From a virus, in the IMG/VR virus record IMGVR_UViG_3300021138_000007, positions 48,112 to 112,111 of that record: a stretch of 64,000 nt of DNA; one strand, 5' to 3'. Below the pieces are notes generated by a model that saw only the letters and a list, made by a program, of their open reading frames with translations, did not search any database and had not been told where the DNA came from. This document shows, piece after piece, positions 42,629-60,720 of the stretch. The position numbers and the translations under genes were made by a program. Each line of letters starts with the position of its first letter. The first letter of the stretch is position 1.

Positions 42629-42658
42629 TTTATTTTACATCTTAAAAAACAAGGAGCG
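42629..42658 (-). repeat. cassette boundary repeat (reverse), copy 1
   Basis: TTTATTTTACATCTTAAAA then ...GGAGCG; upstream of the minus gene at 42524. Diverged at the G/C-rich end. Confidence 0.6.
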
Positions 42659-42722
42659 TATGCTATTTATGCAACATAATATTATAATATAAAATAGTTA
42701 ATATAAATAATTATGCAAAAAA

Positions 42723-42755
42723 CGTCCCATTATGAATTTTAAGACGTAAAATAAA
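42723..42755 (+). repeat. cassette boundary repeat (forward), copy 2
   Basis: Near-consensus: CGTCCCATTATGA followed by ATTTTAAGACGTAAAATAAA. Extended by TTGCTGATTTTTGAGCAA, as in copies at 44118, 45260, 46231 and 54104. Confidence 0.85.
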
Positions 42756-42842
42756 TTGCTGATTTTTGAGCAATCAAATGCGTTGTCTCTATAGGGTATA
42801 ATATATGTGTAGTTTACCCTAGAGGGTAGGGGTTAAAATAAC

Positions 42843-43328
42843 ATGACATTAGAAGCGATTATTGAAACACTGGATAAAAAGCGACGTGGTACAATTAGCA
42901 CTGTATATTTGGACAGACCTGCACTTGTAAGAAGTAAATATCATGGTCCTGAAATTCGCAAAAAATCAGGAGTGCAGTTTTTGGCAAAAGTCGATTACTC
43001 AGACACAAATACAGTACGCCAAGCGGTTAAGAATGGCATTCGTCCTACGCCTCAAACACCGTCTTGGGTGGAAGAAGTTGTAATGCAAAAAGGTATTACA
43101 TTCTGGCGCAAAAAAGATCAATGGTACCTAGTTATGGTGCCAATCAAACCACTCAAAGTAACATGGACTCTTGACGGTAATACAGTACCAAAAGAATCAA
43201 TCCATGATTTTCTTCTTGCCGATGATGCAAAAGAAAGTAACTTCCAAGCAGAAAAATCAGATCGTGCAGAAAAAGGACATTCTGTTTATATTGTTGCTAA
43301 ATTAGAAAACATCTCAAAAATGATTTAA
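42843..43328 (+). CDS. 161-aa cassette protein, family A copy 2
   Basis: Aligned along its length with copy 1 (for example TWTLDGNTV against TWTLGGVEV and FWRKKDQWYL against FWRKGTQWYL), but more AT-rich. The leader carries TATAAT near 42800 and a TACCCT/AGGGTA hairpin before an AGGGG site. Function unknown. Confidence 0.75.
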   Translation: MTLEAIIETLDKKRRGTISTVYLDRPALVRSKYHGPEIRKKSGVQFLAKVDYSDTNTVRQAVKNGIRPTPQTPSWVEEVVMQKGITFWRKKDQWYLVMVPIKPLKVTWTLDGNTVPKESIHDFLLADDAKESNFQAEKSDRAEKGHSVYIVAKLENISKMI

Positions 43329-43346
43329 TCGAAACAGCGACTCCCA

Positions 43347-43372
43347 AAATCCAGTACTAAATACTGGATTTT
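43347..43372 (+). terminator. hairpin terminator
   Basis: AAATCCAGTA / TACTGGATTT, 5-nt loop, T-rich tail running into the boundary repeat. Confidence 0.7.
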
Positions 43373-43401
43373 ATTTTTGTCTTAAAATTCATGGAAGGAC
43401 G
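43369..43401 (-). repeat. cassette boundary repeat (reverse), copy 3
   Basis: TTTTATTTTTGTCTTAAAATTC... ending AAGGACG; overlaps the terminator tail of the gene to its left. Confidence 0.75.
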
Positions 43402-43495
43402 ATTTTTGTTACTCTCTAACAATAAGATTTATTGCTAAATTCATAGCAATAAATATCGTTCCCTCTAACGTGTGATTGGGTATAATAAATACATT

Positions 43496-43738
43496 GTGCT
43501 GAGGACGCAGGGAAGTTATAAGTTTGCTGACACAAAAGAAACAGCAGAGTTTTGGGGATTCCTGCCTTTCTCTTACTGTTGTCAGGCTATTAGAGACAAT
43601 GTTATAATTCACGAAGCACGATATGAAATTTTTTGTCGTTCTCTAAATGATTTTGTAGCTATTGTTAAGATATGGAATGCTTTAGGAGAAATCAAGACAA
43701 AATACAGTACGATTCAATGGAGATATACGATTTGTTAG
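43496..43738 (+). CDS. hypothetical small cassette protein, 80 aa
   Basis: Sequence KFADTKETAEFWGFLPFSYCCQAIRDN, not recognised. TATAAT (43481-43486) is followed by AAATAC, then ATT, then GTG at 43496; either GTG or the ATT at 43493 may initiate. Its upstream words and its 3' region match those of 45003-45146 although the proteins differ. Confidence 0.55.
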   Translation: MLRTQGSYKFADTKETAEFWGFLPFSYCCQAIRDNVIIHEARYEIFCRSLNDFVAIVKIWNALGEIKTKYSTIQWRYTIC

Positions 43739-43830
43739 AGTGTTACTCTAACTCACTTCTTGCGATGGCATAGTATCGCAAGAAGTGAGTTAACTCCAAC
43801 CCCTCAAACAAGCCCGTTGAAAAACGGGCC
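43734..43830 (+). other. structured 3' RNA block, copy 1
   Basis: GTTAGAGT-gtt-ACTCTAAC, then a 15-bp stem (ACTCACTTCTTGCGA at 43751-43765 with TCGCAAGAAGTGAGT at 43776-43790) with loop TGGCATAGTA, then a GCCCGTT-GAAA-AACGGGC terminator with CTTTATT. Copy 2 lies at 45156-45247 and shows compensatory stem changes. Confidence 0.75.
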
Positions 43831-43844
43831 TTTATTGAAATAAG

Positions 43845-43877
43845 AGTCTTATCGTAATTTTTAAGACTCTAAAGAAA
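43845..43877 (+). repeat. cassette boundary repeat (forward, diverged), copy 4
   Basis: GAGTCTTATCG...TTTTTAAGACTCTAAAG; the ends AGAGTCTTA/TAAGACTCT can pair. The most diverged copy. Confidence 0.45.
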
Positions 43878-43924
43878 ATTCGAAAAATTATTCGAAAAAT
43901 GCTCGATTTTTGTTTAGACCGTGG

Positions 43925-43930
43925 TATACT
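43925..43930 (+). promoter_or_regulatory. promoter -10 of the ncRNA at 43937
   Basis: GTGGTATACT; start predicted at G 43937, 7 nt downstream. Confidence 0.6.
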
Positions 43931-43936
43931 TATTAA

Positions 43937-44098
43937 GTCAACGATAAAGGTTGACATCGTTCAAAAGTCCATCTTAGGATGGCATTCGTCAACACAACAT
44001 ACGGGAAGCGCGTCCCGTAACGTGATCAACAGCTAGGTGCGAAAAAGGGCCTCACCTTGAGTCTTCTGTCAAAAGCAGAAGGAGGCCCTTTTTCTTTT
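43937..44098 (+). ncRNA. structured non-coding RNA candidate, about 160 nt
   Basis: No ORF with a plausible start. Stems: GTCAAC (43937-43942)/GTTGAC (43950-43955), with an alternative AACGAT/ATCGTT; CCATC/GATGG; ACGGGA/TCCCGT; and a strong terminator AAAGGGCCTC/GAGGCCCTTT with inner CTTCTG/CAGAAG and a T-rich tail. Two further GTCAAC-like words allow a switch between folds. Not recognised as a known RNA family. Confidence 0.7.
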
Positions 44099-44117
44099 GC
44101 ATTTTTATATAAATAAA

Positions 44118-44150
44118 CGTCCCATCATGAATTTTAAGACGTAAAATAAA
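44118..44150 (+). repeat. cassette boundary repeat (forward), copy 5
   Basis: Matches consensus CGTCCCATCATGA + ATTTTAAGACGTAAAATAAA, followed by TTGCTGATTTTT. Confidence 0.9.
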
Positions 44151-44193
44151 TTGCTGATTTTTCCGCTTGCTATAAAAATAGCAATAAAAACAC

Positions 44194-44252
44194 TTGACTT
44201 TTTAGTGTTTAGTAGTATACTAGGCTATCGCTGAGGCGAGGGAGTAAAACAG
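44194..44252 (+). promoter_or_regulatory. promoter and leader of the gene at 44253
   Basis: TTGACT (44194-44199), 16-nt spacer, TATACT (44216-44221), then a leader with TCGC/GCGA hairpin and GGGAG 8 nt before ATG. Nearly the same promoter occurs at 46307-46334. Confidence 0.75.
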
Positions 44253-44828
44253 ATGTTTATGAAACGCGACAAGTCCGACGATTTACAGAATGCCGCTTGT
44301 AATATCTTTGGATACAATGGTACTAAATTGAAAGCTGAGTTGGCTAAGGACAATATCGTTCAGTTGACTGACATGTATTGGCATGGTGGTACTAAAAGTT
44401 TCTATGCCATTATTGAATTGGCAACGATGAATTCAGTACCTTTGCCAAGTTTTCATCCTATGTTTGACGGTCAAGTACTTCCTGATAAGGTGGAACTTAA
44501 ACCAGGATACGTACTGGTTCGCCATATTAAATTCTGCGGAAGTGATTTAGGACTTGAGTTTATCGTTCATGCTGACGACTGGAAGAATTACGAACTTCCA
44601 GTACCCACCGAACTGAATAGGGATCAAAAGGTAGTACTTCTTTGTACTAAGTGCTATATTTCAAGTTATAGGCGCGAAGAAGCCAAAAGGTACGGTATTA
44701 AGGATTTTGACGCGATTAAGTCAGAGTTAATCGCTAAAGGACTTTTGTCCAAAATCGGAGCACTCACCGTAGAAGGTAAAAATGTTGCCAGTACTTTAGG
44801 CGACATCTATTCCTACTCTAAAAGATAA
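44253..44828 (+). CDS. hypothetical cassette protein, 191 aa
   Basis: Not recognised. CSSD-free; has LLCTKCYISSYRREEAKRYG with a CxxC that is too short for a zinc site alone. GTAC tetranucleotides are frequent. Shine-Dalgarno-led, unlike most neighbours. Confidence 0.7.
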   Translation: MFMKRDKSDDLQNAACNIFGYNGTKLKAELAKDNIVQLTDMYWHGGTKSFYAIIELATMNSVPLPSFHPMFDGQVLPDKVELKPGYVLVRHIKFCGSDLGLEFIVHADDWKNYELPVPTELNRDQKVVLLCTKCYISSYRREEAKRYGIKDFDAIKSELIAKGLLSKIGALTVEGKNVASTLGDIYSYSKR

Positions 44829-44833
44829 GTACT

Positions 44834-44872
44834 AAAATAAAAGGGAAGGATATTCATCTTCCCTTTTATTTT
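44834..44872 (+). terminator. hairpin terminator
   Basis: AAAATAAAAGGGAAG / CTTCCCTTTTATTTT; the right arm overlaps the repeat's TTTTATTTT. Confidence 0.75.
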
Positions 44873-44897
44873 ACGTCTTAAAATCTATGACGGGACG
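44865..44897 (-). repeat. cassette boundary repeat (reverse), copy 6
   Basis: TTTATTTTACGTCTTAAAA then ...GACGGGACG, close to consensus. Confidence 0.9.
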
Positions 44898-45002
44898 ATT
44901 ATTGTAATAAAATTAAAAAAGTATTTTCACTATGGGATTTATTGTTATTATAAAAACAACTTTTATTATACTCTTAAACGTGTTTGAGGGTATAATAAAT
45001 AC

Positions 45003-45146
45003 ATGACGAATGAGGAGTTAGTAACAGAACTTCTGAAACTTAATCCTAAAGCAAAAATCAAGATTTTATCTTTGGATAGCATTGATAATCATGATTTGGT
45101 TAAGATTTATGGAGAACAAGATGTTATTATATTCGATCATCAATAA
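45003..45146 (+). CDS. hypothetical small cassette protein, 47 aa
   Basis: MTNEELVTELLKLNPKAKIK...; a short domain like those that follow DNA/RNA helicase or regulator N-termini, not identified. TATAAT then exactly 6 nt to ATG. The flanks match those of 43496-43738. Confidence 0.65.
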   Translation: MTNEELVTELLKLNPKAKIKILSLDSIDNHDLVKIYGEQDVIIFDHQ

Positions 45147-45155
45147 AAACGATTT

Positions 45156-45247
45156 GTTAGAGTAACACTCTAACGCACATCTTGTGATTGGCATAGTAGT
45201 CACAAGTTAACTCCAACCCTCAAACAAGCCCGTTGAAAACGGGCCTT
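45156..45247 (+). other. structured 3' RNA block, copy 2
   Basis: GTTAGAGT-aac-ACTCTAAC, then CTTGTGA (45181-45187) paired with TCACAAG (45200-45206) around a loop containing GGCATAGTA, then GCCCGT-TGAAAA-CGGGC terminator. Relative to copy 1 the stem changed C-G to T-A on both sides, keeping pairing. Confidence 0.75.
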
Positions 45248-45259
45248 TATTGCATTTAG

Positions 45260-45293
45260 AGTCCCGTCATGAATTTTAAGACGTAAAATAAAT
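45260..45293 (+). repeat. cassette boundary repeat (forward), copy 7
   Basis: AGTCCCGTCATGA + ATTTTAAGACGTAAAATAAA, followed by TTGCTGATTTTTGA. Confidence 0.9.
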
Positions 45294-45414
45294 TGCTGAT
45301 TTTTGAACAAGTTATTGATACTTGAAAATTGCTCGATTTCCAACAAGAAAATACGTTTACCCTATATGGTAAACTATATGCGTCTGTGCCATGAGGGGCC
45401 AACAGGGAGTTAAA

Positions 45415-46167
45415 ATGCAAGTTTTAGATATTAACCTTTCGTCAACGATTAACCAGTTTGTAGAATTTGGTGAGGTTGCTATGGAGTCCGTAGAAACCGC
45501 CGTAAAGCGGTTTGCTGGGTTGAATCTGTACTTGAAGGTATCCAACTACTCTGAAGGCGGATACGACGACGAAACAGGCAGGGAGTGGCCTTCAGGGTGG
45601 AACTCTGAAACAGCTCCGTATGACGTTAAAAACGTAGTATGGCACTGTCTTGGATTGTCCCATATGGACACTGATGCTTTTCGAGAGGAGTTCGAGTCGT
45701 GGGCTACCGCGACTGAACAGGAGTTTCTTGCGTCTGCCATCCGATGTATAGCCTATGACGATGAGAACATTCAGGCTGAATTCTTGACCCCTGAACAGTT
45801 TCAGGAACAGGAACAAGCTGAATTCGTTCGACGTATGAACCTTGAGCGAGATCGGTACGAACCTATCGCTTGTCGGTTCGCTCACAAGCATGGAGTTAAA
45901 TTTGGTACTCCCGAATTTATGTCCAAGTTGGCAGATGCTTTAAGTACTGCCGAAGAAGATGAGCAGGAACGAAGGCATGGCATGAGGGAGGACGGTTTGT
46001 GCTGTACTGGGTACGGTTTTGGTAGCGCGGCTGTAAACGAATGGTACGATTCGTACAATACTCGTTTACCTGAACTCGTCGAACTTGAGGGACTTATGGA
46101 ATGGATTCAAGAATTCCAACCGCTTTTGTATTCTGTTTGGGAGTCCAGTAGACTACAAACAGCATAG
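45415..46167 (+). CDS. hypothetical cassette protein, 250 aa
   Basis: Starts MQVLDINLSSTINQF with AGGGAG upstream; the frame from 45391 is the leader. Acidic, Glu/Trp/Tyr-rich, GC-richer and GTAC-rich. The leader has a GTTTACC/GGTAAAC palindrome overlapping the promoter. No family recognised. Confidence 0.7.
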   Translation: MQVLDINLSSTINQFVEFGEVAMESVETAVKRFAGLNLYLKVSNYSEGGYDDETGREWPSGWNSETAPYDVKNVVWHCLGLSHMDTDAFREEFESWATATEQEFLASAIRCIAYDDENIQAEFLTPEQFQEQEQAEFVRRMNLERDRYEPIACRFAHKHGVKFGTPEFMSKLADALSTAEEDEQERRHGMREDGLCCTGYGFGSAAVNEWYDSYNTRLPELVELEGLMEWIQEFQPLLYSVWESSRLQTA

Positions 46168-46178
46168 TCTAAAGTACT

Positions 46179-46212
46179 CAATAACTAGGAATGTAAAAAT
46201 TCCTAGTTATTG
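46179..46212 (+). terminator. hairpin terminator
   Basis: CAATAACTAGGAAT / ATTCCTAGTTATTG, 6-nt A-rich loop. Confidence 0.7.
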
Positions 46213-46230
46213 TTAATATATTAAAAAAAG

Positions 46231-46263
46231 TGTCCCGTTATGAATTTTAAGACGTAAAATAAA
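46231..46263 (+). repeat. cassette boundary repeat (forward), copy 8
   Basis: TGTCCCGTTATGA + ATTTTAAGACGTAAAATAAA, followed by TTGCTGATTTTTGAG. Confidence 0.9.
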
Positions 46264-46306
46264 TTGCTGATTTTTGAGTAAGCTGTAAAGATAGCAATAA
46301 AAGCAC

Positions 46307-46370
46307 TTGACTTTTTAGAGAATAGTAGTATACTAAGTTATCGCTTTGAGGGCGATATGGAGTAATGAAA
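46307..46370 (+). promoter_or_regulatory. promoter and leader of the gene at 46371
   Basis: TTGACT, 16 nt, TATACT (46329-46334), then a TATCGC/GCGATA hairpin and GGAG 8 nt before ATG. Sister of the promoter at 44194. Confidence 0.75.
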
Positions 46371-46811
46371 ATGTTTGATCGTTTAACAGAAACCGCGCTG
46401 GTGCCTTTCACTAATGATGAACTGAATCTTCTTTTGGATCGTCACTATGGAGTCGAAAGGAGTGACGACGACGGCAAGTCGATTATCACTGATATTTGGG
46501 ATGCTGTAGCCCCTTATACAGACGTATATGCAACACTGACACACTATCACATGACGGATTGGGAACCCGCTGAGGGTGGCTGTGGCATTTGGAAGGCAGT
46601 GGAGCAAAAAGCATGGCGCGTCGATGGCACTGTTACAGAAGACGATCTGGATGCCATTAGGGACGCAATCTTGTCTTCTCTAACAGACGTGCGAACCAAC
46701 GAGCAAGGTGAAATCGTAGGGTACTCAAACGACGGCGAAAAAGGTTCGTTTTCTGTTTACTTCACCGTCGGACGACCTTACGCACATATCCCCTATTTCG
46801 GATACTGCTAA
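46371..46811 (+). CDS. hypothetical cassette protein, 146 aa
   Basis: MFDRLTETALVPFTNDELN; acidic, not recognised. ATG 46365 also possible but only 2 nt from GGAG. Promoter and leader duplicate those of 44253. Confidence 0.65.
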   Translation: MFDRLTETALVPFTNDELNLLLDRHYGVERSDDDGKSIITDIWDAVAPYTDVYATLTHYHMTDWEPAEGGCGIWKAVEQKAWRVDGTVTEDDLDAIRDAILSSLTDVRTNEQGEIVGYSNDGEKGSFSVYFTVGRPYAHIPYFGYC

Positions 46812-46814
46812 GAG

Positions 46815-46848
46815 TTAAAAGCAAGGGAAGTAATTTCCTTGCTTTTAA
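46815..46848 (+). terminator. hairpin terminator
   Basis: TTAAAAGCAAGG / CCTTGCTTTTAA, 10-nt loop. Confidence 0.65.
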
Positions 46849-46876
46849 TTTGTGTCTTAAAATTCATGACGGGACG
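46843..46876 (-). repeat. cassette boundary repeat (reverse), copy 9
   Basis: AATTTGTGTCTTAAAATTC + ATGACGGGACG. Confidence 0.85.
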
Positions 46877-47064
46877 CTTTTTGTAAAAAAGTTAAAATTA
46901 ATTATTTTTAACCATTATAATTTATTGTTATTTAAAATAGTAATAAAACGTTGTTTTATATCAATAATGGTATGATTTGTCGATTCATTCTCTAAATGAT
47001 TATTTTGCCTATATTTTAGCAATAAATCGTGGATATTATTTAGAGAGTGTGATATAATAAAGAC

Positions 47065-47205
47065 ATGAAAAAGTTTATTCTTCATTGGAAAGACGGAAAG
47101 AAAGAAGAAGTGACTGGCAATGATATTGCTAGTGCCTTTAGCAATGCGGGATATTCTCAAGGCGCGATTAGAGCCTTGGATTATTACGAAGAAGTCAAGA
47201 ACTAA
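47065..47205 (+). CDS. hypothetical small cassette protein, 46 aa
   Basis: MKKFILHWKDGKKEEVTGND...AGYSQGAIRALDYY. TATAAT then 6 nt to ATG. A short WxDG...GxxI...AGY...ALDYY pattern that looks like a stand-alone small domain; function unknown. Confidence 0.65.
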   Translation: MKKFILHWKDGKKEEVTGNDIASAFSNAGYSQGAIRALDYYEEVKN

Positions 47206-47261
47206 TATGAACTAAAAATAACATTTAGAGATAGATGTTATTTTTATTATAATGCATTTAG

Positions 47262-47295
47262 AGTCCCGTCATGAATTTTAAGATGTAAAATAAAA
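47262..47295 (+). repeat. cassette boundary repeat (forward), copy 10
   Basis: AGTCCCGTCATGA + ATTTTAAGATGTAAAATAAA (one change). Confidence 0.85.
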
Positions 47296-47426
47296 TTAAA
47301 GATATTGCTTAAATTTTAGCTCGATTTATTACTACTCGAAAATTGCTCGAAAAATGTTCGAAAACACTCGATTTTTGCCAGCATATACGGTATTATATAA
47401 GAACATAAGGATACGGAGAACAGTAA

Positions 47427-47909
47427 ATGACTACAACTGAAATCGCTACCGCACTTGAATCCAAACCGAAGGGTTCCATTTTTACTCTGGTTGTTACACG
47501 CGCAGGCAAGGTGCGAAAGTCTTATGACGGTAAACCTATCACCAAGACTTCGATCATGCAGGGAATGACAAACGTCAACTATGCTGATCGTAAACCAGTA
47601 CGTGAAGCCGTCGCCAACGAGGAAAGGGATGCTCCCGAACTTCCATCCCATATTGAGGATACCTTTATGGTATCTAAGACACGATTCTGGAAGGGTAAGA
47701 ACGGTAAGGAGTATTTTCCTGTCTGTCTGACTGGTAATAAGCCGCAAGCACAATGGTACTTGGATGGTGAACCAGTGGACTTGGATACCATTAAGGATCA
47801 TCTTTTGGCTTCCGAGTACGCCGAACGAAAGGACAAGGAAACCACTGAGGACAAAGGTCAGGCCCTTTTCATCGGTGTCGAAGTTTCCAACGTAACGGAA
47901 GTACGATAA
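47427..47909 (+). CDS. 160-aa cassette protein, family A copy 3
   Basis: Third member of the family at 42039 and 42843 (KVRKSYDGKPITK, YADRKPVREAV, FWKGKNGKEYF, QWYLDGEPV, IKDHLLASEYA). GGAG lies 8 nt before ATG. GTAC-rich. Unknown function. Confidence 0.75.
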   Translation: MTTTEIATALESKPKGSIFTLVVTRAGKVRKSYDGKPITKTSIMQGMTNVNYADRKPVREAVANEERDAPELPSHIEDTFMVSKTRFWKGKNGKEYFPVCLTGNKPQAQWYLDGEPVDLDTIKDHLLASEYAERKDKETTEDKGQALFIGVEVSNVTEVR

Positions 47910-47916
47910 ACTTCTG

Positions 47917-47956
47917 AAATTAAAAGTAGGAAAAGCAATTTTCCTACTTTTAATTT
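47917..47956 (+). terminator. 18-bp hairpin terminator
   Basis: AAATTAAAAGTAGGAAAA, GCAA loop, perfect complement. Confidence 0.75.
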
Positions 47957-47981
47957 GTGTCTTAAAATTCATGACGGGACG
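47949..47981 (-). repeat. cassette boundary repeat (reverse), copy 11
   Basis: TTTAATTTGTGTCTTAAAATTC... + GACGGGACG; overlaps the terminator. Confidence 0.85.
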
Positions 47982-48034
47982 ATTATTTCAAAAATATTGT
48001 GTAAAATTATGCCTGATTATGGTATACTAACTGT

Positions 48035-48250
48035 ATGCCTACGAAGCGATATGATCGAACATGGTCGCAAATTTGCAATAAAGAAGGTAGCGTTTTAATT
48101 TATACTGAAGTTTTATGGTCCTCAAAATTCGGATCATCTTTTGTTACAATGAAGCGCGAACTTTACGAACAATTCGTGAAATCCAAAGAAAAGTATTTCT
48201 CAATTTTCATGAAAAAGAATAACATTACTAGCGTGATGTTAAAAGCCTGA
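48035..48250 (+). CDS. hypothetical cassette protein, 71 aa
   Basis: Basic, Lys-rich. Extended -10 ATGGTATACT ends 6 nt before ATG. Not recognised. Confidence 0.6.
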   Translation: MPTKRYDRTWSQICNKEGSVLIYTEVLWSSKFGSSFVTMKRELYEQFVKSKEKYFSIFMKKNNITSVMLKA

Positions 48251-48264
48251 GGTAAAATTAGAAC

Positions 48265-48657
48265 ATGGCTGCAAAGAATGAATGGACCTTAAAAACATGG
48301 GACTGCGATAATAGCGGAAATAAATGCTGGGTTAAGAAATTTGGCAAAGGAGAAGTTAGTGTTGGTGTTGGAACATTTCTTTTAGTCAACTTTTCTTATG
48401 GTCCTAATTCCGATCATTCTATGTCAGGCACTCGCTGGCATTATGGCACAACCATTTCAGAACAAGATATGATGAACTGGATTGACGAAAACGAAGGAAA
48501 ACATAAATCAATGCCAGTCGATCCAAAACTTTACAAAGATTGGTTTGATTCATGTTCAAAAGAAGTGCAAGATGCACTTTTGGCAGTTGGACAACCCTGG
48601 CATCAATTGTGTCTGAATGATCATAATCGAAAACTGGGAAATTTGAGGTATACTTAG
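48265..48657 (+). CDS. hypothetical cassette protein, 130 aa
   Basis: MAAKNEWTLKTWDCDNSG; aromatic-rich, mixed charge. TAAAAT 6 nt before ATG, 14 bases after the previous stop. Not recognised. Confidence 0.6.
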   Translation: MAAKNEWTLKTWDCDNSGNKCWVKKFGKGEVSVGVGTFLLVNFSYGPNSDHSMSGTRWHYGTTISEQDMMNWIDENEGKHKSMPVDPKLYKDWFDSCSKEVQDALLAVGQPWHQLCLNDHNRKLGNLRYT

Positions 48658-48660
48658 AGC

Positions 48661-49029: not shown

Positions 49030-49054
49030 ATTATTGTAAGTTTATATATAACTC

Positions 49055-54210: not shown

Positions 54211-55101
54211 ATGAAGAGTTCCAAACCAAATAGTTATGATCTTATCACTGATCGCATGATCCAAGCGTTAGAAAATGGCACTTGTCCTTGGCGCAAACCT
54301 TGGTCCGCTTGCGGTAATGCCATCAACGCGGTATCAGGAAAGCGGTATCGTGGTGTAAACGTCTTTATGCTTGCTTTTAACGATTATGCTGACCCCCGTT
54401 GGTTGACGTATAAGCAGGCGCAAGAATTGGGCGGTAACGTCAAGACGGGCGAAAAGGGTACTTATATCTACTTTTATAAGTGGGTACAAAAGCCCGATGC
54501 AAATGACCCTAGTAAGGTGGCAACGTATCCTTTATTCCAAAGGTTCGTAGTATTCAACGTCTCACAATGCGAAAATCTGAAGCTGAAACCACTGGAAGTT
54601 AAGGACGATAACGAACCATTGGTAAAGGCCGAAGCAATTATCGAGTACATGAGTAACAAGCCCGTTGTACGATTCGGCGGCAATAGAGCTTGTTACCATC
54701 CTACTACTGACGTAGTTTGTATGCCAACCTTGCAAAGTTTCGACAGTTCAGAAGAGTATTACAGTACGTTCTTTCATGAACTTGCTCACGCTACTGGACA
54801 TTCGTCACGTCTTAACCGTAAAGAAATTACAGAATCCAAGGTGACTTTTGGTGATTGTGACTACTCCAAAGAAGAACTTGTGGCAGAACTCACCGCCTCT
54901 ATGGTATGTTGCACTCTTGGAATTGACAATAATCAGTCATTCGAGAACTCAGCAAGTTACCTTCGTAATTGGCTTGGCGTACTAAAGAAAGATATGAAAA
55001 TCTTTGCAGAAGCCGCTGGTAAGGCACAAAAAGCCGCTGACTTCATTATGGGAGTATCTTTCGCTCAGGAACAAGACAGTACCGAAGAACTCGCGGCATA
55101 G
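54211..55101 (+). CDS. ardC: ArdC-type antirestriction protein (ssDNA-binding + zincin-like metallopeptidase)
   Basis: 296 aa. N-terminal ArdC domain (DRMIQALENGTCPWRKPWSA, then RYRGVNVFMLA, LGGNVKTGEKGTYIYFYKW) and a C-terminal zincin site HELAHATGH (about residues 189-197) followed by a downstream Glu (KEELVAEL). ArdC proteins protect incoming DNA against host restriction. GAGG 5 nt before ATG. GC and GTAC content higher than neighbours. Confidence 0.88.
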   Translation: MKSSKPNSYDLITDRMIQALENGTCPWRKPWSACGNAINAVSGKRYRGVNVFMLAFNDYADPRWLTYKQAQELGGNVKTGEKGTYIYFYKWVQKPDANDPSKVATYPLFQRFVVFNVSQCENLKLKPLEVKDDNEPLVKAEAIIEYMSNKPVVRFGGNRACYHPTTDVVCMPTLQSFDSSEEYYSTFFHELAHATGHSSRLNRKEITESKVTFGDCDYSKEELVAELTASMVCCTLGIDNNQSFENSASYLRNWLGVLKKDMKIFAEAAGKAQKAADFIMGVSFAQEQDSTEELAA

Positions 55102-55108
55102 GAATAAC

Positions 55109-55144
55109 ATTAAAAGTAAGGAAAGCAATTTCCTTACTTTTAAT
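55109..55144 (+). terminator. 16-bp hairpin terminator
   Basis: ATTAAAAGTAAGGAAA, GCAA loop, complement. Confidence 0.75.
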
Positions 55145-55170
55145 TTGCGTCTTAAAAAACATGGACGGAC
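55141..55170 (-). repeat. cassette boundary repeat (reverse), copy 21
   Basis: TAATTTGCGTCTTAAAAAAC... + GGACGGAC. Confidence 0.8.
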
Positions 55171-55262
55171 ATTTATTGTTATTATGTTTAATAATGATAA
55201 ATTGCTATCCAAAAAGCAATAAATAATAGCTCATATGTATCATGTAATGGTATACTATCTAT

Positions 55263-55514
55263 ATGCAGCTAACCCTCACGTACCGAGAAGCATTAAGTTT
55301 GATTGCAAGAGAACACTGTGTGCGTCCTGAAGATGTAAATATCATTGGATTAGGGTCTGATGATATTATTCAGGCTCTCAAAGATGATGACAAACTGAAT
55401 GCCATTAAACTCGCAAGATATAAGTATGGCATGGGTTTGAAAGATGCAAAAGAATTCGTTGAAAAGATCGGCACAACTGATCCTGACATTTTGGTGGTGG
55501 TGACAAACACATAA
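55263..55514 (+). CDS. L7/L12 C-terminal-domain-like protein, 83 aa
   Basis: DKLNAIKLARYKYGMGLKDAKEFVE (residues about 42-66) reads like the bacterial ribosomal protein L7/L12 CTD (KxxAIKxVRxxTGLGLKEAKxLV). The L7/L12 CTD recruits translation factors, so this might mimic or interfere with it. TATACT 6 nt before ATG. Identity by eye only. Confidence 0.6.
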   Translation: MQLTLTYREALSLIAREHCVRPEDVNIIGLGSDDIIQALKDDDKLNAIKLARYKYGMGLKDAKEFVEKIGTTDPDILVVVTNT

Positions 55515-55729
55515 TGTGGCAAGAAAGAATCAAAACACGTTTCGTTGAAGAATACGCCTATACTCGCAATAATGTTCTTTGCGGTAAAGTGAGGTCAAAT
55601 CCTTTCTTAATTCGTATTGTTGCAGAAGTTTATATCCCCAAGGATGGAGAACTTCAAGGCAAGACACTGACATTTCGTTGCAGTAAAATCGACGATGCAA
55701 AACACATTGTCGAAACATACTTCAAATAA
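55514..55729 (+). CDS. hypothetical cassette protein, 71 aa
   Basis: Start overlaps the previous stop by one base (TAATG). Beta-rich with a basic core (RSNPFLIRIVAEVYIPK). Not recognised. Confidence 0.65.
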   Translation: MWQERIKTRFVEEYAYTRNNVLCGKVRSNPFLIRIVAEVYIPKDGELQGKTLTFRCSKIDDAKHIVETYFK

Positions 55730-55743
55730 GGGCTTCGGCCCTT
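55728..55743 (+). terminator. TTCG-tetraloop terminator
   Basis: AAGGGC-TTCG-GCCCTT. Confidence 0.8.
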
Positions 55744-55775
55744 TTTATTTGCGTCTTAAAAAACATGAGAAGACC
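55742..55775 (-). repeat. cassette boundary repeat (reverse), copy 22
   Basis: TTTTTATTTGCGTCTTAAAA... + GAAGACC. Confidence 0.75.
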
Positions 55776-55789
55776 TTTATTTCAATATT

Positions 55790-55824
55790 AAAACAAAAAG
55801 CCTGTTTTGCAGGCTAGTTGTTTT
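55790..55824 (-). terminator. hairpin terminator of the minus gene at 55823
   Basis: AAAACAA..AGCCTG / CAGGCT..TTGTTTT, 5-nt loop. Confidence 0.65.
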
Positions 55825-56230
55825 AACTAAAGTTATCGTAATACATCAAATCATAAGTGCCAGGTCCATGCTTAATATCATGAGTTTCTTTACATCTCAT
55901 AAGTTGATTTGGCCCTAGATCGGCCCGATTCTTTTGAAGATATTCGTTTGTCAAAGGTTCAGTACGATTGAAACTTCTTTTAGTGATGATATTAATCATC
56001 TCTTGCGGGGTAATCTCGGCACCGTATTCGTCTAAAATTCCGTATTCAGGATTATTGAATTGTTCGATCCATTCTTCAAGAGTTTTGAAAACAGTAGCAC
56101 AAAGTAAAAAACACCAGCCAGCAGATGATTTGCCGATATGCACGTTTTTTACTTGTACTTCCAAGAATAAATCTGATTCTGGAAGATTTTCAGGTTGTTT
56201 TCTCCTGTAGAGATAATAGTTCGTACCCAT
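55823..56230 (-). CDS. hypothetical phage protein of the MGTNYY type, 135 aa
   Basis: Begins MGTNYYLYRR and has VHIGKSSAGWCFLL, a pattern seen in a recurrent small phage protein group. No function known. TATACT 6 nt before ATG. Confidence 0.65.
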   Translation of the reverse strand: MGTNYYLYRRKQPENLPESDLFLEVQVKNVHIGKSSAGWCFLLCATVFKTLEEWIEQFNNPEYGILDEYGAEITPQEMINIITKRSFNRTEPLTNEYLQKNRADLGPNQLMRCKETHDIKHGPGTYDLMYYDNFS

Positions 56231-56282
56231 ATATCTAGTATACCATAGATTTCGAAAATTAAATACATATTTTTAAAGTAAA

Positions 56283-56315
56283 TGTCTTCCCACGATTTTT
56301 AAGATACAAAATAAA
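56283..56315 (+). repeat. cassette boundary repeat (forward), copy 23
   Basis: TGTCTTCCCACGA + TTTTTAAGATACAAAATAAA; diverged. Confidence 0.7.
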
Positions 56316-56345
56316 AGTGTGAGAATTACTATTCCCACACTTTTA
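56313..56345 (-). terminator. hairpin terminator of the gene at 56351
   Basis: AAAGTGTG / CACACTTT with a mostly paired centre. Confidence 0.6.
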
Positions 56346-56350
56346 CTATT

Positions 56351-56752
56351 TCATCCAAAGATGATTTCGTCAAATACAGCAAATTGGATAATGCAGTCCG
56401 CAACTTCTGCATCCATATCTTCAAGAAAATTGATTGTCTTTTTCCATTCTGCGTACTTCTTGATGCCTTCTTTGAGTGAATCAAGTGTTAATGGAATATA
56501 GTTTTCATAATCATCCGTGCTGAACGGTTGTCCTGTTTCAGTATCGTACAATTCCCATCTGAATCCTTCAGGGCTATAGTATTCGTCGCTTGTGGGGTCG
56601 CTAGGTTGTGTTCCTTCAACCAATCTGGCTTCGGCACACCAATAGTCAATACCGCCTTCAAATGCCGTGCAAATGATTTCATTGATTTGCAGTTGCGTAA
56701 GAGGGCGATCAAGCGTGACCTGAATAGTGCAAATAACTTTTGTTTCTGGCAT
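56351..56752 (-). CDS. hypothetical cassette protein, 133 aa
   Basis: Acidic; GIDYWCAEARL and EYYSPEGFRWELYDTETG. Resembles small phage proteins of unknown role. TATACT 9 nt before ATG. Confidence 0.65.
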   Translation of the reverse strand: MPETKVICTIQVTLDRPLTQLQINEIICTAFEGGIDYWCAEARLVEGTQPSDPTSDEYYSPEGFRWELYDTETGQPFSTDDYENYIPLTLDSLKEGIKKYAEWKKTINFLEDMDAEVADCIIQFAVFDEIIFG

Positions 56753-56808
56753 AGCATCAATAGTATACCATAGATTTCGAAAAAATCAATAGCCCTCGAA
56801 AATAAAAG

Positions 56809-56841
56809 TGTCTCGCCATGATTTTTAAGACGTAAAATAAA
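56809..56841 (+). repeat. cassette boundary repeat (forward), copy 24
   Basis: TGTCTCGCCATGA + TTTTTAAGACGTAAAATAAA, close to consensus. Confidence 0.85.
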
Positions 56842-56875
56842 TTCGAAAAAACTTCGATTTTTGAAAAATGTGTGG

Positions 56876-56881
56876 TATAAT
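56876..56881 (+). promoter_or_regulatory. promoter -10 of the ncRNA at 56888
   Basis: TGTGGTATAAT, extended -10; start predicted at G 56888. Confidence 0.6.
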
Positions 56882-56887
56882 ATTTGC

Positions 56888-57057
56888 GTTGAGTGGTAAA
56901 GATAGTTCGAAATGTCTTGCCCGTTGAAGTACAAGACGCATCAACTAGCCAGAGAAGCGGGTTCGATTCCCGTTATGGGCAATCTCATATAGCATTAAGT
57001 GGGTAATGCGCTGGTGAAAGTATAGAGAAATAAACGAATAGTTTTATTTCTCTATAC
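56888..57057 (+). ncRNA. non-coding RNA candidate with a tRNA-like T arm
   Basis: No ORF. GCGGG-TTCGATT-CCCGT (56957-56973) is a canonical T arm. TTGCCC (56917-56922) can pair with GGGCAA (56977-56982) like an acceptor, with GTTGA/TCAAC between them. The span is about 66 nt and lacks a D arm, so it is not a normal tRNA. A second hairpin GCATT/AATGC and a long final hairpin (57020-57056) follow. Function unknown. Confidence 0.65.
57020..57056 (+). terminator. 15-bp hairpin ending the ncRNA
   Basis: GTATAGAGAAATAAA / TTTATTTCTCTATAC. Confidence 0.65.
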
Positions 57058-57084
57058 GAATAAATTCTGAGGTATACTGTAATC

Positions 57085-57333
57085 ATGCTCAAAAACGACA
57101 GACCTTTTCTCACTGAATTGCGATCCATCTATAATGGAGCTTTAGCGGCTCATATCAATAAGATTAAAAGCCTAATGAAAGAGGCCGCAGCAGAAGGGGC
57201 AAATTACATTGTTTATAAAATGCCTTTGGGTCCAATGTCAAGCAAAATTCAAGTTCTTTTTCAAGCAGAAGAGGGGATTCGAGTTTCTGGAACTGACGAG
57301 GGCCTTTACATTACTTGGACTTGGGAAGATTAG
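57085..57333 (+). CDS. hypothetical cassette protein, 82 aa (paralogue of 62656)
   Basis: Aligns with the protein at 62656-62910 (LRSIYNGALAAHINKI against LCNLYHNAISTEFDRI; GLYITWTWE against TLFISWES). TATACT then 6 nt to ATG. Unknown function. Confidence 0.65.
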   Translation: MLKNDRPFLTELRSIYNGALAAHINKIKSLMKEAAAEGANYIVYKMPLGPMSSKIQVLFQAEEGIRVSGTDEGLYITWTWED

Positions 57334-57346
57334 GTATACTGTAATC

Positions 57347-57604
57347 ATGGCAAAAATTGAATACCTGCTCACTGCGTTAGATGATAAAGGTAATATTCTG
57401 GCGAGAAAAATTCATATTGGACAACAGAATGGCACTCAGCGCGGTATCCAAAGAGCTTTCGATAACGCACGTAAAAAATCAGTGCTTTTGTTGGATTCTG
57501 TTCCAAACGCCAAACGATGCGAAATGGAAAGAATTTTCAAAACAGATAACAATCAATACACGGATTCGTATGGTACAATTATCGAAGGATTCACATGGAA
57601 GTAA
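57347..57604 (+). CDS. hypothetical cassette protein, 85 aa
   Basis: MAKIEYLLTALDDKGN; basic, not recognised. TATACT at the previous gene's end, 6 nt before ATG. The frame is open further upstream but unused. Confidence 0.65.
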   Translation: MAKIEYLLTALDDKGNILARKIHIGQQNGTQRGIQRAFDNARKKSVLLLDSVPNAKRCEMERIFKTDNNQYTDSYGTIIEGFTWK

Positions 57605-57831
57605 AAATTCTTGATCAATTGTTTGAAATGCAATCTACTGAAAATGACGGCAGAGGCATTTCAGCAGTACGTGAATTAGTCAAAATACTGCGTAATCCAG
57701 ACCATACGCAAGAACAACTGAAAACCGCAGTTTACTGGGATTGGGATAAAATTGCAAATTATCCTGAGATTGCAAACTTCATCAAGAAAAACATCTATGA
57801 TGATTCGACAATGTATGTTCGTGAGGTATAA
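57595..57831 (+). CDS. hypothetical cassette protein, 78 aa
   Basis: Overlaps the previous gene by 10 nt; AAGGA 5 nt before ATG. Helical, not recognised. Confidence 0.6.
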   Translation: MEVKILDQLFEMQSTENDGRGISAVRELVKILRNPDHTQEQLKTAVYWDWDKIANYPEIANFIKKNIYDDSTMYVREV

Positions 57832-57839
57832 TTAAAGAG

Positions 57840-58205
57840 ATGAGCAGTTTCTATATTGATTTTCCCAAAAGCAAAGTGACATCGTACTTCGAGTCTATTG
57901 GTTTTGCACAAGTCTACTATCAGCCACACACTCCGATGGGTGGCGGCGGAAATACCATTGGTAAAGTGATATACGATGGTAATGATCACATTGTGCATAT
58001 CACCAACAACGCAGGCGAAGCCTATTCAGAATGGAATCTTGAGAAATTGGAGAATGAATGCGTTATCGAAATTGATATCAATGATAAAGCATTGCGATTC
58101 AAAAACAAAAACTACACTATCGAATTCGTTCCCAAAACTCTTGATCAAATCAAAAAATATTACAAGAGCGAATTCGGTGTGAACTGGCTGAAAACTGGAC
58201 GTTAA
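57840..58205 (+). CDS. hypothetical cassette protein, 121 aa
   Basis: Central GGGG (TPMGGGGNTIG). TATAAT 7 nt before ATG. Not recognised. Followed directly by a TTCG terminator. Confidence 0.65.
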   Translation: MSSFYIDFPKSKVTSYFESIGFAQVYYQPHTPMGGGGNTIGKVIYDGNDHIVHITNNAGEAYSEWNLEKLENECVIEIDINDKALRFKNKNYTIEFVPKTLDQIKKYYKSEFGVNWLKTGR

Positions 58206-58226
58206 AAAGGGCTTCGGCCCTTTTTT
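58204..58226 (+). terminator. TTCG-tetraloop terminator
   Basis: AAAAGGGC-TTCG-GCCCTTTTTT. Confidence 0.85.
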
Positions 58227-58256
58227 ATTTTACATCTTAAAATTCATGATGGGACG
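58223..58256 (-). repeat. cassette boundary repeat (reverse), copy 25
   Basis: TTTTATTTTACATCTTAAAA... + GATGGGACG. Confidence 0.85.
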
Positions 58257-58272
58257 ATTGTTGATACTTTAT

Positions 58273-58300
58273 GTTAAATGCCCTTTTCAGGGCATTTAAC
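58273..58300 (-). terminator. hairpin terminator of the gene at 58309
   Basis: GTTAAATGCCCT / AGGGCATTTAAC, 4-nt loop. Confidence 0.7.
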
Positions 58301-58308
58301 GTGGTATT

Positions 58309-58530
58309 TTAGACAAATACAGGTACGACTGTAGCGTATGTTGGTGGTAAGAATATTGCATCAGTCAATGCTTGCACTGAATCCTCATCCTCATCGCTCC
58401 AGTTCTCGCAACCCATATTGAGGAAAAACGCCATAGTTTCGGCCAAAACCTGAAATTGACGGGTGAGGTCAAACTTCAAGAGGGCATTAAAAGCCCAATC
58501 CAACTGTTCATAGAGTGATTTATTCGGCAT
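58309..58530 (-). CDS. hypothetical cassette protein, 73 aa
   Basis: Acidic centre (CENWSDEDEDSVQAL). TATACT 9 nt before ATG. Not recognised. Confidence 0.6.
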   Translation of the reverse strand: MPNKSLYEQLDWAFNALLKFDLTRQFQVLAETMAFFLNMGCENWSDEDEDSVQALTDAIFLPPTYATVVPVFV

Positions 58531-58569
58531 AGCATAGATAGTATAGCATAGTTTGACGAGAAAGTCAAA

Positions 58570-58602
58570 TTTATTTTACATCTTAAAATCTATGGCGGGA
58601 CC
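58570..58602 (-). repeat. cassette boundary repeat (reverse), copy 26
   Basis: TTTATTTTACATCTTAAAA... + GGCGGGACC, between divergent genes. Confidence 0.85.
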
Positions 58603-58675
58603 AGCTTTGCAATATTTTAAAAATTATATAAATAGTTGACTATTACTTGTGAGCGTCAGGTATACTTATTTTACT

Positions 58676-59359
58676 ATGCTAAAGACTTATGCCACTGCGA
58701 TGACTGGCAATTCTAAACTTGGCAGTGGGGTCGCAACGACATATAGGCCCGTCGGCAACGCAGGTACGTCTGAGGGGACGTGTGCTGGCAGTTGCGCCAT
58801 GCTGAATAATGGTTGTTATGCTCAAACCAATCCGTTTGTTGCAAAATGGCATAATACAGCAAAGTCCACCAATCATGATCTTGACGTTCTATTGCAAGAA
58901 GGAGCTAATTTAGTTCGTTTACATACTGCTGGCGACTTTTTTAAGTCTAACGGTAACGGCGGTTGGGAATTGGATTTAGATTATGTCATGGCAGTAATTC
59001 AGTTCTGTAAAGATAATCCCAAGATTACGGTGTGGACATATACTCACGATTTTAAGGAATTTATTAAGCATAATTTAACTTATGCTAAAAATGCTTTCCC
59101 TAGCAATTTTTATTTACTTGCGTCAGTAGATACGCTTGTAGATAAGTATATTGCCACAAGTCACGGGTTTAAGACTGCAAGAGTCATTATGACTGAAACT
59201 GATAAAGACCCAAGCGAAACATTTTGCCCGTATGATCTACAATCCTCACGCGGGATTAAACCTACTGTAAAATGTTCTACTTGTAAGTTGTGCTTTAACG
59301 ATAAACACAAAAAGGACATTGCATTTATCGCCAAATTGCCAAAAAAGTACAGAAAATAA
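58676..59359 (+). CDS. Gp88-like phage protein
   Basis: 227 aa. CAGSCAMLNNGCYAQTNPFV, LVRLHTAGDFFKS, DNPKITVWTYTHDF and a C-terminal CSTCKLCF match the pattern of the phage gene product 88 family (Cys-rich, RLHxxGDFF, YT). These Cys residues suggest an iron-sulfur or zinc site. Function not established. ATG 58676 follows TATACT by 9 nt; a TTGACT -35 lies 19 nt further up. Confidence 0.75.
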   Translation: MLKTYATAMTGNSKLGSGVATTYRPVGNAGTSEGTCAGSCAMLNNGCYAQTNPFVAKWHNTAKSTNHDLDVLLQEGANLVRLHTAGDFFKSNGNGGWELDLDYVMAVIQFCKDNPKITVWTYTHDFKEFIKHNLTYAKNAFPSNFYLLASVDTLVDKYIATSHGFKTARVIMTETDKDPSETFCPYDLQSSRGIKPTVKCSTCKLCFNDKHKKDIAFIAKLPKKYRK

Positions 59360-59361
59360 TC

Positions 59362-59377
59362 GGGCTTTGGCCCTTTT
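59362..59377 (+). terminator. TTTG-loop terminator
   Basis: GGGC-TTTG-GCCCTTTT, variant of the TTCG form. Confidence 0.75.
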
Positions 59378-59407
59378 ATTTTACGTCTTAAAATCTATGG
59401 GCGGACG
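59374..59407 (-). repeat. cassette boundary repeat (reverse), copy 27
   Basis: TTTTATTTTACGTCTTAAAA... + GGCGGACG. Confidence 0.9.
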
Positions 59408-59423
59408 ATTATTGCAAATTTAT

Positions 59424-59457
59424 AAAATATTGGGATATATTACTATCCCAATATTTT
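59424..59457 (-). terminator. hairpin terminator of the minus genes
   Basis: AAAATATTGGGATA / TATCCCAATATTTT, 6-nt loop. Confidence 0.7.
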
Positions 59458-59825
59458 TAGTTTCTGACAGCTTGTTTCAACTGGTAAACTTGATCTTCAA
59501 GATTAGCTTTTTCAGCTTTCAGTGTTTCATTTTCTGTTGAAAATTTCTTCATACTTGCCTCATATTGATCTTGATAAACAGAAGAATCTGGCTTGTATGC
59601 TTCAAGCCAAAGTTTGCTATTAAACAAAGTACACAAAGACATAAGTCCTGTAATACAAAGAGCGGCGATAGCAATAATTGCAGTATTTTCGTTCCAATTA
59701 CTGCCTTTAATCATCCAAAAGATGATAACTGCTAGAATTAACAAAGACACAAAACCTAAAACAAGATATGTGACTCCATGAATATGAGCGGCGTCTGATA
59801 ATGCGTGTAATGTTTTATCTGGCAT
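59457..59825 (-). CDS. small two-helix membrane protein with coiled coil, 122 aa
   Basis: Hydrophobic segments at about residues 18-39 (YLVLGFVSLLILAVIIFWMI) and 48-66 (AIIAIAALCITGLMSLCTLF), then a coiled coil. TATCAT 6 nt before ATG. Spanin/holin-like topology is conceivable but unproved. Confidence 0.65.
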   Translation of the reverse strand: MPDKTLHALSDAAHIHGVTYLVLGFVSLLILAVIIFWMIKGSNWNENTAIIAIAALCITGLMSLCTLFNSKLWLEAYKPDSSVYQDQYEASMKKFSTENETLKAEKANLEDQVYQLKQAVRN

Positions 59826-59846
59826 GACTGTATGATACTTTATGTG

Positions 59847-60032
59847 TCATTCTTTTGTCAATATATCTGGGTTCGAAAAAACTTCTATGCAGAATAAAAT
59901 AAATGCTGCTCCAAGCCAGGTGCTAAAATCAAATATGATATGTTTATCAAATAGAAGATTTATTGATAATATCAAACCATAAGGACAGACAATAAAACAA
60001 ATGATGTTGTAAATAATTGTTATTAATTTCAT
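59847..60032 (-). CDS. small membrane protein, 61 aa
   Basis: Two hydrophobic segments (IIYNIICFIVCPYGLILSI and FSTWLGAAFILFCIEVF). GATAAT 6 nt before ATG. Not recognised. Confidence 0.55.
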   Translation of the reverse strand: MKLITIIYNIICFIVCPYGLILSINLLFDKHIIFDFSTWLGAAFILFCIEVFSNPDILTKE

Positions 60033-60046
60033 ACTCGAATTATCGG

Positions 60047-60412
60047 CTAATGAAGAACGATTTTTACAATTCCTTGCATTGTGACACTCAAATTATTTAC
60101 AGTATTAGATACTCCATCTAAAAGATTGAGATCACTTTGTTCTTGTGCTGTTCGAATTTGTTTTGCGAAAAGTTCGAAAAAATTATACGCCAGACTCTCG
60201 AAATTTGTTTGCAGTTGAGTAAGTTTTTCAGAGTCAGTCATATTTGATGTATCCACGCCAGCGTTAAGATCATCAAGATTAAATTTATCATTTCTAGTTA
60301 AAGATAATTCGGTTCCAGAGTGCGACATGGTATAATTGATTGTCGCACTTCCGTCTGTGTTATCTGTGATATGATTAACAATATAACTGATAGATATAGA
60401 AAGATCAGGCAT
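60047..60412 (-). CDS. hypothetical cassette protein, 121 aa
   Basis: Thr/Ser/Asn-rich N-terminal half, helical C-terminal half (LQTNFESLAYNFFELFAKQ). TATAAA 5 nt before ATG. Not recognised. Confidence 0.6.
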   Translation of the reverse strand: MPDLSISISYIVNHITDNTDGSATINYTMSHSGTELSLTRNDKFNLDDLNAGVDTSNMTDSEKLTQLQTNFESLAYNFFELFAKQIRTAQEQSDLNLLDGVSNTVNNLSVTMQGIVKIVLH

Positions 60413-60432
60413 ATTGTTTTATACTCGAAAAA

Positions 60433-60654
60433 TTAAACTATTGCCTTTAGTTGTTTATCTATTTCGGCAATTTTATTTTCGAAAATCTGTTTACTCTTTG
60501 TGAGTGCTTCTTTATGTGTGAATATTTCATCTTCATTATAGATGAATCTATTATCACAAATATATCTTGCTTTATCACAAGATATGATTTTGTGTTTATG
60601 TATACTTCCGTTTTTACTAACGCTGTATACAATTTCATTAATCGAATATTTCAT
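60433..60654 (-). CDS. hypothetical cassette protein, 73 aa
   Basis: Basic, helical C-terminus (EALTKSKQIFENKIAEIDKQ). TACAAT 6 nt before ATG. Not recognised. Confidence 0.6.
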   Translation of the reverse strand: MKYSINEIVYSVSKNGSIHKHKIISCDKARYICDNRFIYNEDEIFTHKEALTKSKQIFENKIAEIDKQLKAIV

Positions 60655-60688
60655 GCTTATATTGTACCTCGAAAATTAATTATGGGAA

Positions 60689-60720
60689 TTTATTTTACAT
60701 CTTAAAATAAATGTTGGGAC
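60689..60720 (-). repeat. cassette boundary repeat (reverse), copy 28
   Basis: TTTATTTTACATCTTAAAA... + GTTGGGAC. Rightmost copy found; genes beyond 60.7 kb are packed without it. Confidence 0.85.

Follow-up and report, generated by a model that had tools for sequence, protein, structure and literature searches.

A repeated element at the transcription-unit borders of an accessory array

The DNA analysed here, called the window, is a stretch of 64,000 bp (positions 48,112 to 112,111) from IMG/VR virus record IMGVR_UViG_3300021138_000007, a phage referred to as G000. The record has 112,111 bp, of which 48 kb lie outside the window. Genes in the window were called by hand from open reading frames. 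Between 42,629 and 60,728 the window holds an accessory array of small gene cassettes, and these cassettes are delimited by 28 copies of a 40-bp element, CAATAATCGTCCCGTCATGAATTTTAAGACGTAAAATAAA. A search with the core TTTTAAGACGTAAAATAAA, allowing up to three mismatches, gave 26 matches in the window as against 0.17 expected and a maximum of one in 100 shuffles, and all of them lie between 42,629 and 60,707. The same search on the whole record returned the same 26 matches and none in the 48 kb beyond the window. An iterated 40-column profile, applied to the whole record, recovered exactly 28 copies scoring at least 29 bits each (the weakest 29.4), whereas the next-best site in the record reaches 8.5 bits and the best site in 20 Markov-shuffled genomes 6.3 bits. 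All 28 are intergenic, with 13 in forward and 15 in reverse orientation. The array was bounded by core search, profile and gene map, the elements were placed by the profile and the gene-free interval by the gene map, as follows (window coordinates).

42629-60728 (no strand): accessory cassette array delimited by 28 elements
42629-42668 (-): element 1, array edge; weakest left half, 29.4 bits
42669-42715 (no strand): gene-free interval of 47 bp between elements 1 and 2, possible empty slot
42716-42755 (+): element 2, TTGCTGATTTTT subtype
43369-43408 (-): element 3
43838-43877 (+): element 4, divergent, 34.1 bits
44111-44150 (+): element 5, TTGCTGATTTTT subtype
44865-44904 (-): element 6
45253-45292 (+): element 7, TTGCTGATTTTT subtype
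46224-46263 (+): element 8, TTGCTGATTTTT subtype
46844-46883 (-): element 9
47255-47294 (+): element 10
47949-47988 (-): element 11
48997-49036 (-): element 12
49325-49364 (+): element 13
49814-49853 (+): element 14
50202-50241 (-): element 15
51307-51346 (-): element 16
51783-51822 (-): element 17
52132-52171 (+): element 18
53357-53396 (+): element 19
54097-54136 (+): element 20, TTGCTGATTTTT subtype
55139-55178 (-): element 21
55743-55782 (-): element 22
56276-56315 (+): element 23
56802-56841 (+): element 24
58224-58263 (-): element 25
58570-58609 (-): element 26
59375-59414 (-): element 27
60689-60728 (-): element 28, last copy

Conservation runs from about column 0 to column 39. On the CGTCCC side it fades into a mild conservation of A/T; on the other, little is left past about column 50. 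The most strongly conserved parts are GTC (columns 8-10), YCAT (14-17), TTTTAAGA (21-28) and AAAATAAA (32-39). The alignment of the 28 copies revealed no supported base pairing, no palindrome, no convincing terminal inverted repeats and no conserved promoter or -10 box at a fixed distance outside the 40 bp. A hairpin or RNA structure was considered on the grounds that CGTC and GACG resemble a stem, and was rejected for lack of covariation in this alignment. The TTGCTGATTTTT subtype comprises exactly five copies (elements 2, 5, 7, 8 and 20), occurs nowhere else in the record, and in this small sample precedes a gene with a Shine-Dalgarno-like sequence in five of five cases.

Much of this had been anticipated by a sequence-only reading, which described 28 copies at 42.6-60.7 kb, at nearly every gene boundary and in both orientations, delimiting an accessory cassette array and missing from the first 42 kb. 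The profile bears out the number, the coordinates, the two orientations and the confinement to unit borders in the array, and the five-copy subset said to carry an extra hairpin and to precede mainly Shine-Dalgarno-led genes is precisely the TTGCTGATTTTT subtype. The length of about 33 bp given there was too short, as conservation extends over about 40 bp. Equal density across the genome, or copies inside genes, which that reading had named as incompatible with it, were looked for and not found.

Orientation of the element and its relation to transcription

Of the 27 intervals between neighbouring elements, one is the gene-free 47 bp and 26 contain one gene, a small same-strand operon or a putative structured RNA, so that there is about one element per transcription-unit border in the array. 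Counted on the hand-called genes, all 10 strand switches between 42.5 and 60.8 kb fall at an element and no interval between elements contains one. In the first 42 kb none of 10 strand switches is at an element (Fisher p = 1e-5 for the comparison with the array), which shows that the element is not a general border device. The TAAA end faces a promoter in 15 copies and a terminator in 13 (p = 0.85, minus-strand genes included), and neighbouring copies stand as forward-forward six times and as forward-reverse, reverse-forward and reverse-reverse seven times each. The element is thus oriented at random, whether judged against transcription or against its neighbours. The four arrangements being equally common, the idea of composite cassettes flanked by inverted copies (forward...reverse) was rejected.

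Where the TAAA end lies at the 3' end of a unit, it abuts a hairpin in 11 of 13 cases, and the T-rich end of the element is then the U-tract of the terminator. It was because of this U-tract that reverse copies had seemed to overlap terminators. The wider rule of the sequence-only reading, reverse copies at terminators and forward copies before promoters, arose because most array genes are on the plus strand; the abutting hairpins stand, and the strand rule itself is spurious.

A directional expression signal of the flanking gene, such as part of a promoter, an operator or an RNA-processing site, would explain why copies adjoin promoters or terminators and why the TAAA end lends a U-tract to abutting hairpins. 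It would also demand a polarity that the 15 to 13 split does not show. No conserved -10 box stands at a fixed spacing, and, as the copies are placed between one unit's terminator and its neighbour's promoter, most expected transcripts would not include them. Random orientation means that the element is not an ordinary promoter, operator or RNA-processing signal. The suggestion of a fixed-polarity regulator site or RNA-processing signal is therefore disfavoured, and we regard this as the least probable of all the explanations.

Random orientation would sit more comfortably with a mobile element of the miniature inverted-repeat transposable element (MITE) type, or its remnant, that spread through intergenic sites without a function, as the element is short, multi-copy, non-coding and intergenic as well. 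Such an origin is nevertheless highly improbable, given one copy per border with only one adjacent pair, the lack of convincing terminal inverted repeats or covariation, the absence of copies from intergenic sites elsewhere in the genome, and the absence of a transposase of the type tested (PF01797).

Cassettes are shared between phages that carry different repeats

Relatives of the phage were found through its DNA polymerase and are labelled G004, G006, G008, G009, G012, G014 and G016, with contig pieces labelled L (e.g. L109, L245, L282 and L287). Five cassette genes bear on the exchange of cassettes.

42843-43328 (+): cassette gene, diverged paralogue (31% amino acid identity) of 47427-47909; protein comparison
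47427-47909 (+): cassette gene, 57% amino acid identity to G009 58471-58947, a single cassette in the G009 array; protein comparison
49895-50188 (+): cassette gene with a homologue (34% amino acid identity) inside the G008/G014 array; protein comparison
54211-55101 (+): ArdC-like cassette gene (ArdcN and MPTase-PolyVal), 45% to G009 50602-49733, homologue also in the G012 array; domain match and protein comparison
58673-59359 (+): DUF7227/GP88-like cassette gene, 48% to G009 47709-47029, homologue also in the G008 array; domain match and protein comparison

The three G009 homologues (of 47427-47909, the ArdC-like gene and the GP88-like gene) each lie between two neighbouring G009 elements. They occur in another order than in G000, and two of the three are inverted relative to the third. 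Homologous cassettes are flanked in each phage by that phage's own repeat. The paralogue at 42843-43328 is less alike (31%) than the G009 homologue (57%), which suggests that the cassette lineages predate the boundary repeats of today. The boundary repeat would then belong to the genome and not to the cassette, as judged from identities and not from a tree. In G000 itself, observation thus covers the placement, the confinement and the orientation of the element and the sharing of cassettes.

Several cassettes have features of their own. Four carry a possible structured RNA or lack a convincing gene. The one at 43925-44100 (+) has no convincing open reading frame; it holds a structured RNA (z -3.0) enclosed by a promoter-like GGTATACT and a strong terminator. 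At 49046-49290 (-) there is no open reading frame of at least 38 amino acids, and the minus strand folds strongly (z -5.1) behind a promoter-like TTGACT-17-TATTAT site. At 51195-51312 (+) a perfect TTGACA-18-TATAAT precedes a branched, compact RNA (about 85 nt, z -2.5) with a terminator that enters element 16. The fourth, at 56878-56985 (+), resembles the 3' half of a tRNA (GGGTTCGATTCCC, pairing TTGCCC/GGGCAA); ARAGORN made no call there, and a sub-threshold Rfam match to YrlA (Y RNA-like, E = 0.27) lies nearby. The gene at 55263-55514 (+) matches the C-terminal domain of ribosomal protein L7/L12 (PF00542, 4.2e-06). Many cassette genes (e.g. 48035, 49895, 55263, 55823-56230 and 56351-56752) look leaderless, their start codon following a few nt after a TATACT, and others have Shine-Dalgarno sequences. 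Outside the array, 61597-61983 (-) encodes a response-regulator receiver-like domain (PF00072, 1.3e-05, below the cut-off).

Related phages have analogous arrays with their own boundary repeats

The phage gave no megablast match among deposited phage records. Degenerate patterns of its element returned nothing beyond one chance match in IMG/VR and GTDB, none of the DNA polymerase relatives carries it, and no further relative was obtained through a cassette protein. The scan of related phages that had been proposed with the sequence-only reading therefore gave no copies, and the relatives were found to carry different repeats. The DNA polymerase relatives (50-62% identity) sit in IMG/VR contigs of up to 379 kb, so the 112-kb record probably represents only part of a large phage genome. 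Assigning a host through DNA polymerase relatives in genome bins was given up, as these are scattered.

A search for over-represented intergenic words in the related records showed that at least five related lineages have an analogous accessory region, each with its own repeat. G009, the closest (62%), has about 22 copies of TAATGATCGTGNCRCAYAATCRYAGAAAGTCATAAA at 41-59 kb in both orientations, with a promoter polarity of 4 versus 10 (p = 0.18). G004 has palindromes GGGGTGRTAATATTAYCACCCC at 1-27 kb, G016 and its relatives have palindromes AGGNNNGGTANNTACCNNNCCT with conserved flanks including TTTGACA, and the G008/G014 repeat is GTCGGGGGGTTAACCCCCCGA. In G012, about 48 composite repeats in the same direction occupy 44.7-68 kb (L164-L165), each a CCCCTCCAAAGGGG hairpin followed by TTTTCCAGGTTTAACA...TTATAATAGATATG. 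By its sequence this repeat is like the promoter early stem-loops (PeSLs) of T4-like phages, a predicted terminator followed by a leaderless promoter. For palindromes only the perfect set was used, as loosely matched ones with G-T wobbles gave 250 matches versus 127 in shuffles.

Homology between the elements of G000 and G009 was suspected by eye (AATRATCGT...AAGNCNTAAAA) and was dropped when column-permutation tests gave no support. The TTTTAAGAYRYAAA half of the G000 element resembles the B-side of the G016-type element (L245: TTTAAGATGTAAATTAAA), which is a lead only. In G009, tandem 25-bp repeats (AGAAAGTCATAAAAAAGATCGTGAT) at L109:4669-4812 are built from half of its boundary element, and about 40 promoter-like motifs, AAAAATCCCC then ATCGGATATATAA, occur in L109-L111 (1-60 kb), mostly directly before start codons.

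The G016-type dyads are perfect although their arms differ strongly between copies, while the outer boxes are conserved. Dyads kept perfect despite differing arms point to a constraint at the DNA level or to template-switch correction. They bear on the main rival explanation, in which a phage or host DNA-binding protein sits on each element as an orientation-independent insulator or anchor that separates the units with respect to read-through, silencing or the spread of supercoils, recombination being a by-product of repetition. A perfect dyad is typical of the site of a dimeric protein, a copy stands at nearly every unit border whatever its orientation, and, although the cassettes are old and diverged, the conservation is dense and sequence-specific (GTC, CAT, TTTTAAGA, AAAATAAA). 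The strong variation of the sister palindrome arms would, however, not easily be tolerated by a single sequence-specific protein, the 10 strand switches in the first 42 kb lack the element, and no binding protein was identified. We consider this explanation rather unlikely, though a serious one.

Cassettes are exchanged at the boundary elements of sister phages

Exchange was examined in the G016-type clade, whose members can be aligned at the nucleotide level. There, 40% of the ends of homology blocks fall no more than 60 nt from an element, as compared with 17% of random positions. Among 48 distinct non-collinear junctions, which are not fully independent, 31 lie within 60 nt of an element (about 8 expected; binomial p ~1e-13), and many of the others are found repeatedly at a single homologous point close to the array edge, about 280-310 nt away from an element. 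Two cases could be read at base level. Element 997 of L282 is flanked on its left by the sequence that lies left of L287 element 6010 and on its right by that to the right of L287 element 3740, so the two contigs, 93-95% identical there, differ by an element-to-element deletion or insertion of about 2.3 kb. Element 2041 of G006 brings together cassettes that lie at elements 4910 and 9686 in G016. In the sister phages, and in these only, cassettes are seen to have been lost, joined and put into a new order, with the breaks exactly at the corresponding boundary elements.

Which enzyme could carry out such exchange was addressed by domain searches. Tyrosine recombinase PF00589 is absent from 11 records, G000 (itself a 112-kb fragment) included, with control genomes positive. 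Likewise PF00589, serine recombinase PF00239 and Y1 transposase PF01797 had no match in G000 or in relatives of 300-379 kb, the controls again being positive; a search for endonuclease VII was uninformative, its controls being negative. A candidate for general recombination is present in the window.

3135-4442 (-): UvsX-like recombinase gene, candidate general recombination enzyme by inferred role; domain match

Chromosomal (super)integrons are cassette arrays with species-specific attC repeats. The arrays described here resemble them in their mostly single-gene cassettes, in a boundary repeat that is typical of the genome and not of the cassette, and in cassettes that are shared across hosts and carry the local repeat in each of several phages. 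The element could accordingly be the site of an unrecognised site-specific recombinase or sequence-specific nuclease in an integron-like capture system. Unlike in (super)integrons, an integrase was not found in G000, the sites have neither a uniform orientation relative to the genes nor attC structure, and cassettes with their own promoters and terminators lie on both strands; the sister elements are palindromes with conserved outer boxes. With the three recombinase and transposase families unmatched, we hold such a system to be quite improbable. A broader and still unlikely version is that a clade of very large phages keeps superintegron-like arrays without an integrase, each lineage having its own repeat, which incoming cassettes would gain by capture or concerted evolution and which a dedicated phage function would recognise.

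The simplest explanation, which we favour and consider just about probable, is that the element is a genome-specific linker at the borders of single-gene or small-operon units, where general recombination shuffles the accessory units of a large tailed phage. Homologous recombination between copies, within a genome or between co-infecting relatives, would use the UvsX-like recombinase. Exchange between copies would remove, add or replace whole transcription units and leave them undamaged, one end of the element often doubles as the U-tract of an abutting terminator, and the copies may be kept alike by selection for exchange or by gene conversion. By analogy, the G000 element would act as its counterparts do in the sister phages. 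Of the three functions first proposed for it, the recombination junction is the best supported, by way of the sister phages only, and a dedicated site-specific recombinase was not found.

Several points weigh against a linker. For want of a close relative of G000 in the collections, no junction could be observed at its own element; the sister elements are palindromic, and sequence homology of the G000 element to the element of any relative could not be demonstrated. Conserved elements also attract alignment ends, and a junction that recurs in several contigs is not independent each time. Drift would moreover be expected in passive linkers, yet the copies on either side of cassettes with proteins only 31% identical have stayed alike, and some selection or conversion is thus needed.

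Discussion

Repeated intergenic sequences are known from other viruses. The nearest known kind is the PeSL of T4-like phages (Arbiol 2010 and Comeau 2014, in the part of PMC4503421 that cites them), and the haloarchaeal myovirus HGTV-1 has a similar inverted-repeat promoter motif (PMC3950731). Like the G000 element, these are multi-copy intergenic sequences in phage accessory regions, where genes are thought to be shuffled. The polarity of a PeSL is fixed toward the next gene. A PeSL combines a promoter with a stem-loop, whereas the G000 element has neither and is randomly oriented, hairpins mainly abutting its terminator-facing copies. Repeats near many genes are also found as the SAS/ESAS sequences of cluster K mycobacteriophages, tied to translation starts (PMC3203893), and in halovirus HF2, where they act as promoters in native orientation (PMC8707807); both are directional. 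The G000 element, with its TAAA end at a terminator in 13 of 28 copies, keeps no fixed place and orientation immediately upstream of start codons. The intergenic palindromic repeats M1/M2 of Pithovirus, a eukaryotic giant virus, colonise intergenic regions and are linked to the plasticity of the genome in a comparable way, although they are clustered, MITE-like and 100+ bp long (PMC10664404).

Short conserved boundary sequences have been proposed for phage mosaicism and are said not to be identifiable at most mosaic junctions (PMC3029335). The likeness lies in short homology at module borders that is used by general recombination; the difference is that G000 has one sequence 28 times in one genome, bounding nearly every unit of the array. 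A literature search of incomplete coverage found no paper on orientation-free, genome-specific boundary repeats in the accessory arrays of large phages. With clear repeats at the borders and rearrangements of sister contigs exactly there, the old linker hypothesis becomes testable at base level. A further question is how boundary repeats can be replaced entirely between phages whose cassettes are still shared. Boundary repeats are a means of recognising accessory cassettes, such as those for anti-restriction and genes of unknown function, in large phages. Together with the rearrangements at them in sister phages, they suggest a way for large phages to swap genes without an integrase.

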